This document shows, piece by piece, positions 2,291 through 6,457 of a DNA stretch of 6,457 nt. The first letter of the stretch is position 1. Every line of letters begins with the position of its first letter. The notes under the pieces are model-generated. The model ran no database searches. It was not told the origin of the DNA and worked only from the letters and a program-made list of their open reading frames with translations. Both the position numbers and the translations under genes were made by a program. Origin of the DNA: Lachnospiraceae bacterium (lineage in GTDB: Bacteria; Bacillota_A; Clostridia; Lachnospirales; Lachnospiraceae); the NCBI GenBank assembly GCA_017613055.1, contig JAGAES010000155.1, positions 1 to 6,457 of the forward strand, read 5' to 3'.

Positions 2291-3091
2291 ATGAGGAATC
2301 TGATTGCGGTTGCGAGAGAAACGAAGAAGATTACGAAGGAAGGCCGGTATGAGCTGAACGGGCATACCGTCACATTTCCCGAAGTGGATCTTACGGCGGT
2401 GAAGGTGTACACGCCGGAAGCCGGCGCGGCGCTCTGCGGCCGATTCCCGGGAGAACCCGGCAAAACGCCTTTGATTCAGATTACGACCGAGGATTCGTAC
2501 CGTGCGGCAAGCCGGTTTGAACATCCGCTTGTAATGAACTTCGCGAATGCGCAGCATCCGGGCGGCGGCTTCGAAATCGGCGCCACCGCACAGGAGGAAA
2601 GCCTGTGCCGCTGCAGCACGCTGTACGCATCGATCAAAAGCGAGGCGGCGCGCGAGATGTACCGTTACAACAAGACGAATATCTGCGCGACGGAATCCGA
2701 CTACATGCTGCTTTCGGATCCGGTTTTCGTGTTCCGTGACGAGAAATGCAATTTCCTTGAGAAACCTTTCCGCGTCGGCGTTATTACCGTACCCGCCCCG
2801 AACCGTGCCGGACGGGCGATGTTCGCTTCGGCGGATAAGCTTGCGGCAGCGATGACGAAACGGATCCGCATCATGCTTGCGATTGCGAAAGAAAACGGCT
2901 TCCGCGACCTTGTGCTCGGAGCCTGGGGCTGCGGCGCGTTCCGGAACGACCCCGTCAAGGTGGCGGGATACTTTAAAACCGTCCTTCTTGACGAAGGTTA
3001 CGGCGCATATTTCGACACGGTCTGCTTTGCCATCTACGGTAAGGAAGACGGAAAGAACTACATCGCCTTCCGTGAGGCTTTCGGGCAGTAA
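2291..3091 (+). CDS. Bacterial-type poly(ADP-ribose) glycohydrolase, TIGR02452 macrodomain family
   Basis: This family cuts ADP-ribose chains, or ADP-ribose from modified targets, in the cytosol and releases ADP-ribose. The 266-residue protein carries the signature of bacterial PARG: GGG at 91-93, seven residues, then QEE at 101-103. The second Glu (E103) matches the known catalytic residue. The preceding 'NFANAQHPGGG' (83-93) and the later 'LGAWGCGAFRNDP' (209-221) match the ADP-ribose and phosphate loops of the macrodomain. The N-terminal region (about 1-80, 'RNLIAVARETKKI') is the accessory segment typical of TIGR02452 proteins. The ribosome binding site AGGAGG (2281-2286) overlaps the stop of the response regulator gene, with 4 bases to the ATG, so co-translation is likely. 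No ADP-ribosyltransferase is in the window, so the natural substrate is unknown. The Nudix gene just downstream would use the ADP-ribose product. Family assignment is firm; actual poly- rather than mono-ADP-ribose activity is inferred from the family. Confidence 0.92.
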   Translation: MRNLIAVARETKKITKEGRYELNGHTVTFPEVDLTAVKVYTPEAGAALCGRFPGEPGKTPLIQITTEDSYRAASRFEHPLVMNFANAQHPGGGFEIGATAQEESLCRCSTLYASIKSEAAREMYRYNKTNICATESDYMLLSDPVFVFRDEKCNFLEKPFRVGVITVPAPNRAGRAMFASADKLAAAMTKRIRIMLAIAKENGFRDLVLGAWGCGAFRNDPVKVAGYFKTVLLDEGYGAYFDTVCFAIYGKEDGKNYIAFREAFGQ

Positions 3092-3108
3092 CGGGGAAGA
3101 ACCCGTTA
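3089..3108 (+). other. Small hairpin overlapping the glycohydrolase stop codon
   Basis: TAACGGG at 3089-3095 pairs perfectly with CCCGTTA at 3102-3108 around the 6-base loop GAAGAA. The stop codon of the glycohydrolase gene is the first three bases of the stem. Only three T residues follow shortly after, so it is not a convincing terminator. It may slow ribosomes, protect the mRNA 3' end, or be chance. Confidence 0.35.
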
Positions 3109-3137
3109 AGTTTCGAGCGATAATTGCGACAAATGTT

Positions 3138-3143
3138 AAGGAG
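3138..3143 (+). promoter_or_regulatory. Ribosome binding site deciding the Nudix start
   Basis: AAGGAG lies 9 bases before ATG 3153-3155. The frame stays open upstream to 2877, but that part overlaps the glycohydrolase gene out of frame and has an unnatural Arg/Ser/Thr-rich composition, so it is not coding. Confidence 0.7.
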
Positions 3144-3152
3144 CAGGACCAT

Positions 3153-3716
3153 ATGGACGAACCGGATCTGAACTGGGAAACCGAGTCGACGGAAACCGTA
3201 TTCCGGACGCCGGTTTTTGAGATACGTACAAAGAAACAGAAAGCGGCGGCCGGACCGTGCGGCGAGTATTACTCAATCCGCGGGCACCGCTGCGTCTGCA
3301 TTGTCGCGGAGTATGAAGGCAAGCTGATTCTCGTGCGGCAGTTCCGACACGGAAGCGATGAAATCACGGCCGAACTTCCGGGCGGCATCGTGGATGACGG
3401 CGAGACTCCGGAGGAGGCGGCCGCAAGGGAACTCGAAGAGGAAAGCGGATTCCGCGCCGGGACGATTACGCTTCTCGGAAGAATCAACCCGAATCCCGCT
3501 TTGTTTGAAAAAGAGAGCGTTTTGAACGTGTGCCTTGCGGAAGATCTTGTTCCGACCGGCGAACTGCATCCGGATGCGGACGAGGTGCTTCACAACTCGT
3601 TCGTTCCGGTTGACGAGGTCATCGAGAAGCTCGGCACGGGTGAGTATGACCATATGTTTATGGGGACCGCATTGCTTTTCTATCTGAGGTACAAAAAATG
3701 TGGAAAGCTTATCTAG
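3153..3716 (+). CDS. Nudix hydrolase, ADP-ribose pyrophosphatase type
   Basis: The enzyme would split ADP-ribose into AMP and ribose 5-phosphate in the cytosol, using metal ions. It is 187 residues, usual for this class. The Nudix box is complete at 78-100: G78, E84, then R92-E93-L94-E95-E96-E97-S98-G99-F100, matching Gx5Ex7REUxEExGU. The run-in 'VRQFRHG' (61-67) and 'AELPGGIVDDGE' (73-84) match the NudF/ADP-ribose pyrophosphatase pattern of 'RQxR' and 'ELPAG'. A proline (P115) lies 15 residues after the box, which as I recall is a mark of ADP-ribose-specific members. The CoA-pyrophosphatase signature (LLTxR...FPGG) is absent. It follows the glycohydrolase gene by 61 bases, and its last 19 bases overlap the next gene, so it belongs to the same transcription unit. 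Substrate choice is inferred from motif and context; GDP-mannose and other nucleotide sugars remain possible. Confidence 0.88.
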   Translation: MDEPDLNWETESTETVFRTPVFEIRTKKQKAAAGPCGEYYSIRGHRCVCIVAEYEGKLILVRQFRHGSDEITAELPGGIVDDGETPEEAAARELEEESGFRAGTITLLGRINPNPALFEKESVLNVCLAEDLVPTGELHPDADEVLHNSFVPVDEVIEKLGTGEYDHMFMGTALLFYLRYKKCGKLI

Positions 3717-5563
3717 CGGACATCGGACCGCTTTCGGAACCGTCCGTTTATAAAAGGCTTTCCGAGGCGATGACGCCGCAGCGCGCGGCCAAGGTTTCGA
3801 AACTCAAAAGCCGCCGGGACCGTTTCCTTGCGGTCGGAGCGGATGCGCTTCTTTCGACGGCGCTTACGAGGTACCTTTCGGGGAAGCTGTTTGAGAAGAA
3901 CGAAGGGCGCGTGACGGCGGTTGATCTGTCGGCGATTGAGACGGTCACATTTGCCGCGAAGGAATACCGTAAGACCGCCCGGAAGAAGGGCGGGAAGCCG
4001 TTTCTTAAGGCGTTTCCGGACTTTCACTACAACCTCTCTCACTCGGGGACGAAAGTGCTTCTTGCCGTGTCGGACCGCGAGATCGGCTGCGACATCCAGA
4101 AGGTGTCCGGACACCATGAGAGAGTAATGAAACGGTTCTTCACGGAGCCGGAGCAGGCTTATGTCACGGGTGTAACGGAGGACGGACGGGCGGAGCGTTT
4201 CACCGAAATCTGGGCGCGGAAGGAGAGCTTCGTAAAAGCAACCGGGCGCGGACTTGCCGAAGATTTCCGGTCGTTCACGGTGAGTGATGCGGACGGGATA
4301 CCGATGCTTAGTAAGAGCCCGGAGAGCGCGGAATGGGAGCTTGTCGCCGGAGAATTTCCGGAAGGCTACCGCGGATGCATATGCGTAAAGAAAGAGAGGA
4401 GCAGGGAGCACGTGAAGAAGAAAGAGAATACGGATTTTAAGAAGATGAAGGCGTACGTCGACAGCCTTGCGAAGACGTACGGACTCCCGACGGCCGATGT
4501 CATGATCATGAAAAATCATCAGGTACTGTTCCGGCATATGTTCGGAAGCGAGGACCTTGAAGGCAAGACGCCGGTTTCGGGACTCAGCCGTTATCTCGTC
4601 TTTTCCATGACGAAGATTCAGACGATGACGGCGGTGATGCAGCTCGTCGAGCAGGGCAAGCTGTCACTTCAGGATGAGGTCTCAAAATACCTGCCGGCAT
4701 ACGGCAAATTGTATGTTGCGGAGGAGAAGGAAGGCACCATCCGAATCGTTCCTGCGAAGCGTCCCATGCTCGTGTGGCATTTGCTGTCGATGCAGTCCGG
4801 ACTCGATTACGACCTGAACCGACCGGGCATTCTTCTTGCAAGAAAGAAGTACGGCGAAAAGGCAACGACGCGGCAGATTGTGGACTCATTCCCGGAGACG
4901 CCGCTTTGCTTCCATCCGGGCGACCGGTTCCTGTACAGTTTAAGTCACGACGTGGCGGCGGCCATCGTCGAGGTTGTGTCCGGGATGAAATTCTCCGATT
5001 ATCTCAGAAAGAACATCTGGAATCCGCTCGGGATGAAGCACACGGGCTTCTTCAAGCGGCATGATGCGCGGAAGAATCTCGTGCAGCAGTACGTCTACGA
5101 GAATGAGAAGATTGTTCCGATGGAGAACGACTGCAGCTACCGGCTTTCGGACGCCTATGAGAGCGGCGGCGCAGGGCTTTCTAGCACAACCGAGGATTAT
5201 GCGGTCCTTGCGGACGCGCTTGCCTGCGGCGGCACGGCGGCCAACGGGAAGCAGATTTTGAAGCCCGAGACCATCGAAATCATCAAGACCGACCTTCTTA
5301 CCGACCAGGGTCGGAAGGACATGCATGATAATATGGGACGGTTTGAGTACGGCTACGGCTGCGGCATGCAGGTGCTTTTAAATCCGGAACTCGTCGGAAC
5401 GCCGGCGCCCGCGGGCGTATTCGGCTGGGACGGCGCAGCGGGAAGCTGCTGCATTATGGACCGTAGCACCGGGCTGTCGCTTGTCTTTATGATGCACGTT
5501 CGGAACTTCGGACCGGCCTACGGCGAGATTCACCCGAAGCTTCGGGATTTACTTTTTGAATAA
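3698..5563 (+). CDS. Fusion: Sfp-type 4'-phosphopantetheinyl transferase + beta-lactamase-fold serine hydrolase
   Basis: A 621-residue open frame joins two enzymes. Residues 1 to about 232 form a Sfp-type transferase that moves phosphopantetheine from CoA to a serine on carrier proteins: 'NLSHSG' 112-117, 'GCDIQKV' 130-136 with metal ligand D132, and 'WARKESFVKATGRGL' 172-186 with E176. Q134 stands where Sfp has a second metal-binding Glu. A lysine/glutamate-rich linker (about 231-250) leads to a class C beta-lactamase/EstB-like hydrolase (about 250-621): SxxK at S303-K306, Y413-S-L in the place of the usual YxN, and a late 'GWDGAAGS' loop (576-583) in the third-motif position. There is no signal peptide or transmembrane segment, so the hydrolase should be cytosolic, unlike many penicillin-binding relatives. 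The ATG follows GAGGT (3686-3690) by 7 bases and overlaps the Nudix gene by 19 bases. A GTG at 4412 could start the hydrolase separately. Carrier-protein target unknown. Confidence 0.88.
   Translation: MWKAYLADIGPLSEPSVYKRLSEAMTPQRAAKVSKLKSRRDRFLAVGADALLSTALTRYLSGKLFEKNEGRVTAVDLSAIETVTFAAKEYRKTARKKGGKPFLKAFPDFHYNLSHSGTKVLLAVSDREIGCDIQKVSGHHERVMKRFFTEPEQAYVTGVTEDGRAERFTEIWARKESFVKATGRGLAEDFRSFTVSDADGIPMLSKSPESAEWELVAGEFPEGYRGCICVKKERSREHVKKKENTDFKKMKAYVDSLAKTYGLPTADVMIMKNHQVLFRHMFGSEDLEGKTPVSGLSRYLVFSMTKIQTMTAVMQLVEQGKLSLQDEVSKYLPAYGKLYVAEEKEGTIRIVPAKRPMLVWHLLSMQSGLDYDLNRPGILLARKKYGEKATTRQIVDSFPETPLCFHPGDRFLYSLSHDVAAAIVEVVSGMKFSDYLRKNIWNPLGMKHTGFFKRHDARKNLVQQYVYENEKIVPMENDCSYRLSDAYESGGAGLSSTTEDYAVLADALACGGTAANGKQILKPETIEIIKTDLLTDQGRKDMHDNMGRFEYGYGCGMQVLLNPELVGTPAPAGVFGWDGAAGSCCIMDRSTGLSLVFMMHVRNFGPAYGEIHPKLRDLLFE
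4395..4414 (+). promoter_or_regulatory. Possible internal ribosome binding site and GTG start at the domain junction
   Basis: AGAGGAG at 4395-4401, followed by GGGAG at 4404-4408, lies just before an in-frame GTG at 4412-4414 (codon 239 of the fusion). Starting there would give a 383-residue protein holding only the serine hydrolase domain, a normal length for that family. The first purine run is 10 bases from the GTG and the second only 3, so neither spacing is ideal. The region encodes a Lys/Arg/Glu-rich linker, whose codons are purine-rich by nature, so the match may be chance. Confidence 0.35.
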
Positions 5564-5583: not shown

Positions 5584-6312
5584 ATGAGAAAGATTCTTGG
5601 CATTTTCCTGGTTGCCGCGATGCTTCTCGGGATGACGGCATGCGGTAAGGAGGAATCCCGGAAGGGAGCGAAAAGAAATACGGGCGACGGGACGAAACCG
5701 GCGGAGCATGAGATTAAGCAGGTGGATCCGTTTGAGTTCTATAAGCTGTTTCACGGGTTCTGGTCGGAAGTCGGAGGCGACGATTTTATAAATGTTAATG
5801 CCTATCCGGAAGGCCGGGGCTATTCGTTCGAATACGGAAACTGCGGCGGAGAGTGGGACGGATACGACGAAATTCTTTCCGTTGAGCTGGATTCGAAAGC
5901 CGGCACGTACCGGGTTCACTTGATCGGTTGGACGAATCTGTACGATTGCGATGAAGGAGAACCGGAATCATATGAATATGATATCCTGTGGCTTCCGGGC
6001 AATGACACGGCACTTCTTACGATGGAGGACGGACGGACCGTAACCTATCAGTGGGGTTTTCCGGAGGACAACTATTACAAAATGTATAATGAACCGTTCG
6101 TAATAGAAGCTTCTCAACTTGCCGAAAGGGATGCGCTTGTATACCTGAGCAGAATGAGTTTAAGCGAACTTCGGGAGATATGGGCGGAGTATCTTGAGGA
6201 GAGCGAATCCGGGGAAACCCATCAGGTCTATTCCGTTCCGTATAATTCCGACCTCCGCGTAATTGTCGACGGAACCGAAGACGGTGAGATTACATCCGTG
6301 AAGGTCCGGTAA
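5584..6312 (+). CDS. Putative lipoprotein of unknown family
   Basis: The 242-residue protein starts with a lipoprotein signal peptide: R2-K3, a hydrophobic stretch 4-19, and a lipobox-like 'MTAC' with C20 as the lipid-bearing residue, so it should be anchored to the outer face of the membrane. The Met at -3 is less common than Leu but accepted. A polar spacer (about 21-45) follows, then an acidic, aromatic-rich domain. Residues about 48-160 read as beta strands ('FYKLFHGFWSEVG', 'GYSFEYG', 'TYRVHLIGW', 'TALLTMEDGRTVTYQWG'), weakly recalling small lipocalin-like domains that start with a Gly-x-Trp strand. C87 and C122 could form a disulfide. A short helical stretch with Leu/Glu (about 178-205) and two more strands end the protein. 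No catalytic motif was recognised. It is the last gene before the terminator, 20 bases after the fusion gene. It could be a surface partner of the sensor kinase, but nothing in the sequence shows this. Confidence 0.8.
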   Translation: MRKILGIFLVAAMLLGMTACGKEESRKGAKRNTGDGTKPAEHEIKQVDPFEFYKLFHGFWSEVGGDDFINVNAYPEGRGYSFEYGNCGGEWDGYDEILSVELDSKAGTYRVHLIGWTNLYDCDEGEPESYEYDILWLPGNDTALLTMEDGRTVTYQWGFPEDNYYKMYNEPFVIEASQLAERDALVYLSRMSLSELREIWAEYLEESESGETHQVYSVPYNSDLRVIVDGTEDGEITSVKVR

Positions 6313-6325
6313 TATCCGGAAATAA

Positions 6326-6365
6326 AAGAAGGACTGCCGCACCGTACGGTGTGACAGTCCTTTTT
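6326..6365. terminator. Strong bidirectional rho-independent terminator
   Basis: AAGGACTG (6329-6336) pairs with CAGTCCTT (6355-6362), and an inner CACC/GGTG stem closes on a GTAC loop, with one C/A mismatch and one G-U pair between the two stems. TTTTT (6361-6365) follows on the plus strand; on the minus strand the hairpin is followed by TTCTTTTATTT. It ends the six-gene run 13 bases after the lipoprotein stop and can also end the convergent gene on the right. Confidence 0.9.
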
Positions 6366-6385
6366 GAATTCAGGAGTTGTCCGGA

Positions 6386-6457
6386 TCAGGTACCTGCAAG
6401 CATCTTCTTGAGTGCTGCCACGTCCGGAGATACCTTGTAGGCTTCTTCCTTCGTAAC
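6386..6457 (-). CDS. C-terminal end of a convergent gene, unidentified
   Basis: On the minus strand a frame enters from the right edge and stops at TGA (6388-6386), giving 23 residues: V-T-K-E-E-A-Y-K-V-S-P-D-V-A-A-L-K-K-M-L-A-G-T. The balanced composition of Ala, Lys, Glu and Val looks like a real protein end, while the other two minus-strand frames here give Arg/Ser/Thr-rich text. The stop lies 20 bases from the shared terminator, which fits a convergent gene. The fragment is too short to identify. Confidence 0.6.
   Translation of the reverse strand, partial: VTKEEAYKVSPDVAALKKMLAGT

Follow-up and report, generated by a model that had tools for sequence, protein, structure and literature searches.

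In-frame fusion of a phosphopantetheinyl transferase and a family VIII-like esterase in uncultured bacteria

A single reading frame encodes both an Sfp-type phosphopantetheinyl transferase (PPT) and a family VIII-like esterase in the 6,457-nucleotide stretch of Lachnospiraceae DNA analysed here (the window). The gene lies on the forward strand at positions 3698–5563 and specifies 621 amino acids with no inner stops. The fusion was confirmed to be genuine, and not the result of chance or an assembly slip, since it is found in ten protein clusters from several sources and in two further genomes (G420 and G425), and since the dN/dS values of both halves indicate selection. We hold, with moderate confidence, that the product is a bifunctional, probably cytosolic enzyme derived from two neighbouring operon genes, in which the holo-ACP role of a sole PPT and an esterase activity are tied by common expression and not by a shared substrate.

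Domains and fold of the fused protein

The PPT half comprises residues 1–231 (positions 3698–4390, forward strand), the linker residues 232–246 (4391–4435, forward), and the esterase half residues 247–621 (4436–5560, forward). The results from Pfam searches indicate that residues 129–228 belong to ACPS (PF01648; E value 3e-18; 66.3 bits against a cut-off of 25) and residues 252–603 to Beta-lactamase (PF00144; E value 3.6e-51). An earlier note, made from the sequence alone, had described an uninterrupted in-frame pairing of a PPT with a beta-lactamase-fold hydrolase, and both domains are indeed present in the one frame. All five catalytic motifs that it quoted were located in the protein, i.e., NLSHSG (112–117), GCDIQ (130–134) and WARKES (172–177) in the first half, and SMTK (303–306) and GWDGAAGS (576–583) in the second. 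An AlphaFold2 model built from 51 input sequences has two well-folded domains (mean pLDDT 92.7; pTM 0.64) separated by a disordered linker, with pLDDT below 50 at residues 235–244. The lack of a signal peptide on the hydrolase, also remarked on earlier, was borne out in that none is visible by eye in the sequence, and a secreted hydrolase was rejected on this ground.

Both halves are under purifying selection, the hydrolase being the slower-evolving of the two whether fused or not. Between the window and G420, dN/dS was 0.40 for residues 1–125, 0.16 for residues 126–228 (at a high dS of 1.35), 0.39 for 20 linker codons, and 0.07 for the hydrolase. The corresponding values for pairs of split genes were 0.23–0.30 (PPT) and 0.07–0.09 (hydrolase).

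Distribution of the fusion

Among the 120 homologues listed of 1178, both Pfam domains occur together in ten clusters (P0001–P0010, of which P0006 is truncated) that are 51–100% identical to the window protein (P0001), and the hydrolase domain occurs alone in the other 110. Together with the fused genes of G420 and G425, these clusters establish that the architecture recurs and is not specific to one strain. Queries with a PPT half only, for which candidates were limited to proteins 0.55–1.75 times the query length, returned these clusters again, six (window half) and four (P0008 half), and no others. Among the fused clusters, only P0008 has a name from its source, namely "serine hydrolase [Lachnospiraceae bacterium]". 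As far as the searches reach, the fusion appears to be rare and confined to a small group of uncultured bacteria. These belong to at least two lineages, and P0007 may represent a third, its PPT half having 34% identity to the PPT half of P0008. In a viral collection, P0008 had no relative and P0001 had one distant relative (30% identity; L135). Among the papers listed in searches of the open literature, judged by titles and the starts of abstracts, none dealt with a PPT-hydrolase fusion. Thus the pairing looks new in the sense of being absent from the searches made, while both halves belong to familiar types.

Origin of the fusion

Unfused relatives stand beside the fused ones, so that the successive steps can be followed as the stop is lost, the spacer is read through and the former start decays. 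Within the family of genome G001 (397 genomes), a PPT and a hydrolase in line with a single stop between them were found only in G213, among the matches listed. The genus of G213 (22 genomes) contains the fusion in two genomes (G420 and G425), adjacent genes in frame with a TAA in three (G213, G428 and G437), and adjacent genes out of frame in one (G430). One further genome (G435) has the Nudix and PPT genes at an apparent contig end, eight carry a close hydrolase and a PPT on different contigs, G432 has a close hydrolase and no PPT that could be found, and six have distant hydrolases only. The gene order Nudix-PPT-hydrolase is common to fused and split forms.

In G437 and G428, a TAA stands at the equivalent of window codon 234 and is followed by 36 bases (12 spacer codons), in frame; in G213 the TAA is followed by 78 bases (26 codons), also in frame. 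In all three the hydrolase has its own Shine-Dalgarno site and ATG. The in-frame state of these three species is not strong evidence in itself, because they form a single clade, and any such pair of genes has a one-in-three chance of being in frame. At the site of the stand-alone ATG, as placed by alignment and junction DNA, the window has an ACG (codon 245; positions 4430–4432, forward) and G420 a CTG, and in fused G425 the old ATG and its ribosome site persist inside the fused frame. Given the stop of the split relatives at the codon-234 equivalent, and their Shine-Dalgarno site with an ATG at the ACG position, the fusion is best explained by loss of the stop and read-through of the spacer, a mechanism that we regard as well supported by these comparisons. 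The linker, delimited from the junction DNA of six loci, spacer lengths and pLDDT, would be this former spacer, and the spacer of L168 and the linker of P0005 are equal in length as counted by eye.

A stop at the junction of the closest split relatives is also what one would expect if the frame of the window were due to an assembly error or to a stop lost in one strain. The earlier note had taken homologues that were always separate genes with a stop near codon 235, together with a stop here on resequencing, as the sign of such an artefact; as to the stop, the closest split relatives agree with it; fused relatives exist as well, however, with in-frame linkers that differ in both length and sequence. 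These independent relatives (ten clusters and two further genomes), along with selection on both halves, led us to reject an artefact or single-strain read-through, to which we attach almost no probability.

The number of fusions was addressed by trees. The hydrolase tree (52 rows) included 20 stand-alone hydrolases and 17 hydrolase-alone loci, all hand-picked, and omitted the truncated P0006 and 90 of the 110 listed stand-alone hydrolases. On this tree the fused rows require two changes, which the starred branches force, and a single fused clade is rejected (AU p 0.005); a tree that keeps P0007 together with the P0008 group is acceptable (p 0.617). The concatenated tree (22 rows) also has two changes, and one clade is barely rejected (p 0.049). 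The unrooted PPT tree (16 rows) has one change for the fused rows with weak support (59/21), and the rooted one (20 rows) has two, with one change still acceptable (p 0.27); a p of 1e-7 from the 16-row PPT test is invalid, as a truncated P0009-like row (L195) was counted as non-fused. A single origin is thus rejected by the hydrolase tree, barely by the concatenated tree, and not by the PPT trees. The two changes on the hydrolase tree fit a pair of fusions as well as a single fusion followed by a re-split, the PPT tree not being decisive. Two fusions would be the simpler reading, because a re-split needs both a new stop and a new start.

The remnants of the old start also bear on a fairly unlikely alternative, namely that the gene yields two products, the full-length protein and a free hydrolase from an internal start. 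The old ATG of G425 keeps a ribosome site with a pairing energy of -9.5 kcal/mol (9 of 618 codons score as low), and possible start codons are found in the linker at GTG 239 of the window (positions 4412–4414, forward; -8.0 kcal/mol, where the PPT start of the window has -7.0) and at ATG 235 of G420 (-9.1). The hydrolase starts of the split genes pair at -11.0 to -11.9 kcal/mol. As an internal start GTG 239 is weak, however, since 49 of the 621 window codons score as low, and the old start of the window is an ACG with a weak pairing of -5.6 (154 of 621 as low). Start-like codons elsewhere are equal or better, as with ATG 430 (-8.4) and ATG 203 (-8.2) in the window, TTG 175 in G425 (-12.4), and ATG 443 in G420 (-12.4).

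The phosphopantetheinyl transferase half

The PPT half aligned with Sfp from Bacillus subtilis (PDB: 1qr0/4mrt) over residues 94–230 (E value 5e-18). The two have in common the ACPS domain, the motifs N-x-SHSG, GxD and W-x-x-KES, and a length of about 230 residues. The characteristic PPT signature, GxD followed by (W/F)xxKE(S/A)xxK, is present as IGCD (129–132) and WARKESFVK (172–180, including K175). The NCBIfam model for the phosphopantetheine-protein transferase domain (TIGR00556) fell short of its cut-off (36.5 bits against 45.35); the predicted Sfp-type assignment is kept, because the Pfam match to this domain clears its own threshold by a wide margin. The metal ligands of Sfp are D, E and E, and the window protein has D132, Q134 and E176 at these positions, so that the Glu found two residues after the Asp in Sfp is replaced with a Gln. 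Of 14 other PPTs checked from relatives, nine have the same Gln, as does split G430, and a Glu is found in split G213, G428 and G437 and in fused P0007. The ideas that the Gln points to a disabled PPT, or that it marks the fusion, were dropped, Gln being common in the PPTs of relatives.

Unlike Sfp, the window PPT is fused to a hydrolase, and the fusion is the only PPT found in fused G420 and G425. The PF01648 model, which covers AcpS as well, has one match in 20 of the 22 genomes of the genus, two in G424 and none in G432 (controls: 10 of 14 positive). In G420 and G425, genomes for which completeness is not given, the single match is the fusion itself. AcpS proteins form a family of about 120 residues whose model (TIGR00516) is not among the NCBIfam families listed for the window protein. 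That model exceeded its cut-off in none of the 22 genomes, although it did so in only 5 of 14 controls, and its seven weaker matches fall in PPT genes already counted. As the fusion is the only PPT found in G420 and G425 and AcpS was not seen there, the PPT half likely makes holo-ACP for fatty-acid synthesis. Carrier proteins gave two matches in G420 and three in G425, all in frames of 80–112 residues, i.e., small stand-alone ACPs. A ketosynthase domain was found in 18 of the 22 genomes, including G425 and not G420, and FabH (PF08541) in six, neither of the fused genomes among them; fatty-acid synthesis in the two is therefore not fully documented. Synechocystis is described as having a single PPT that acts on its fatty-acid synthase ACP and that could not be deleted in the attempts made (PMC5605751). 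If the fusion is truly the sole PPT, then an enzyme expected to be essential has an esterase attached to it, and its expression and role are directly testable.

The hydrolase half

By sequence, the hydrolase half is nearest to family VIII esterases (PDB: 4ivi, E value 2e-41; PDB: 7pp3, E value 5e-41), which it also matches in fold (TM 0.77–0.83 on target length), and then to EstB and LovD, so that both halves are as first described. Its fold matches include LovD, EstCE1 and a macrolactin acyltransferase. Family VIII is defined, in the account consulted (PMC7092541), by S-x-x-K, a conserved Tyr in Y-x-x, and a third motif WGG or H-x-x. In the window protein, S303-M-T-K306 and Y413-S-L provide the first two, and S303, K306 and Y413 are identical in all 15 aligned rows. 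The third motif is W577-D-G579, compared to WGG in VIII.1 and VIII.2 or H-x-x in VIII.3, and its Trp and second Gly are kept in the 14 rows that reach them. The half thus shares S-x-x-K, Y-x-x, the Trp of the third motif, and the fold with family VIII carboxylesterases (4ivi, EH7 of 7pp3, Est-Y29, and EstB of 1ci8), and differs from them in W-D-G for W-G-G, in an N-terminal PPT domain, and in following a Nudix gene within an operon. LovD has the same fold and about 20% identity to this half, with a Ser/Lys/Tyr arrangement that we take to be the same; the window contains no polyketide genes. The best NCBIfam score of the fusion was for the methyl acetate hydrolase AcmB (NF052559; 133.8 bits, cut-off 550), and bla_class_C scored 28.6 bits (cut-off 415); as both are far under their cut-offs, the half was taken as neither AcmB nor a class C beta-lactamase as such.

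The surroundings of stand-alone hydrolases were surveyed through 20 neighbour proteins hand-picked from 18 loci. Pfam matches were obtained for 17 of the 20, and include two beta-galactosidases, an esterase, a GlcNAc epimerase, a sugar-isomerase-like protein and a MATE pump, among others; none of the 20 is a carrier, fatty-acid synthase or NRPS protein by Pfam. An SDR protein recurring in three loci scored higher as a gluconate 5-dehydrogenase (269 bits, cut-off 279) than as FabG (206 bits, cut-off 298), and a FabG-like assignment was dropped, even though the better score is also under its cut-off. A small acyl ester is our best guess for the substrate of the hydrolase.

Proposed role of the fused protein

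In the bifunctional reading that we favour, the N-terminal half would move 4'-phosphopantetheine from CoA onto carrier proteins, including the ACP of fatty-acid synthesis, and the C-terminal half would hydrolyse or transfer the acyl groups of small esters by means of Ser303, Lys306 and Tyr413. The halves, held on a flexible linker, would be co-translated and linked by operon position and common expression. The presence of the fusion in two lineages could point to a functional link rather than to neighbourhood, and to this extent counts against that reading.

Such a link could take the form of a shared task, in which the hydrolase would act in a LovD-like manner on the carrier activated by the PPT, removing or transferring its acyl groups, and the fusion would tether the two halves. 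The two changes on the hydrolase tree and the result from the concatenated tree would fit repeated fusion, and LovD, EstCE1 and the macrolactin acyltransferase among the fold matches are likewise compatible with a shared task. We nevertheless consider a shared task rather unlikely, since repeated fusion is not shown by the PPT tree, the hydrolase is mostly a stand-alone protein whose sampled neighbours are devoid of carrier, fatty-acid synthase and NRPS proteins, and the SDR among them is a poorer match to FabG than to gluconate 5-dehydrogenase. Moreover, a single-sequence search showed no PPT beside the hydrolase in any of 29 loci (L001–L029), some of them cut by contig ends. Condensation domains were found in three of the 22 genomes of the genus (G424, G427 and G437), all of them non-fused, and an NRPS partner for the fusion was rejected. 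The specific proposal of the earlier note, a shared task on NRPS or PKS carriers, was not upheld, as G420 and G425 have no condensation domain and only small stand-alone carriers, and as the hydrolase-only homologues and sampled neighbours point the same way. A broader version, which strikes us as improbable, is that the only carrier-activating enzyme was twice joined to one and the same esterase on account of the latter's activity towards acyl-carrier or pantetheine-linked substrates, with proof-reading or acyl recycling coupled to holo-ACP formation, and that a free esterase is made from an internal start in addition.

Neighbouring genes

The Nudix hydrolase gene upstream (positions 3153–3716, forward; 187 residues) has its likely start at 3153 in a frame open from 2877, overlaps the start of the fusion by 19 bases, and occupies this place in fused and split relatives alike. 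Immediately before it, in the region 2291–3716, is a microbial PARG-type gene (PF10021, TIGR02452), and the two may form an ADP-ribose pair beside the fusion, the substrate of the Nudix protein being a guess. Positions 18–2282 contain a small gene, a histidine kinase and a LuxR-type response regulator, in the same order as upstream in L166 (the G420 locus); the kinase and regulator are also upstream in L167, L168 and L169. A scan for promoters and terminators gave 5 compared to 3.3 in shuffled sequences, and 8 compared to 7.3.

Directly downstream of the fusion is a lipoprotein-like gene (positions 5584–6312, forward), for which the first ATG is at 5563 and the better ribosome site, as judged by eye, is that of the ATG at 5584; it had no Pfam or NCBIfam matches. 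A lipoprotein-like gene also directly follows the fusion or hydrolase in L166, L168 and L169, and lies within 0.6 kb in L167, those outside L166 having weak similarity to that of the window. Over the region 5584–6457, nucleotide identity to L166 is 0.95–0.985 across the lipoprotein gene, compared to about 0.89–0.91 across the hydrolase, and dS between the window and G420 is 0.05 in the lipoprotein gene and 0.56–1.35 in the other genes. The rise in identity and the low dS suggest a recent recombination just behind the fusion. Positions 6315–6375 also match L166 at 9053–8992 on the opposite strand, so that the lipoprotein gene is followed by an inverted repeat, which may be a terminator.
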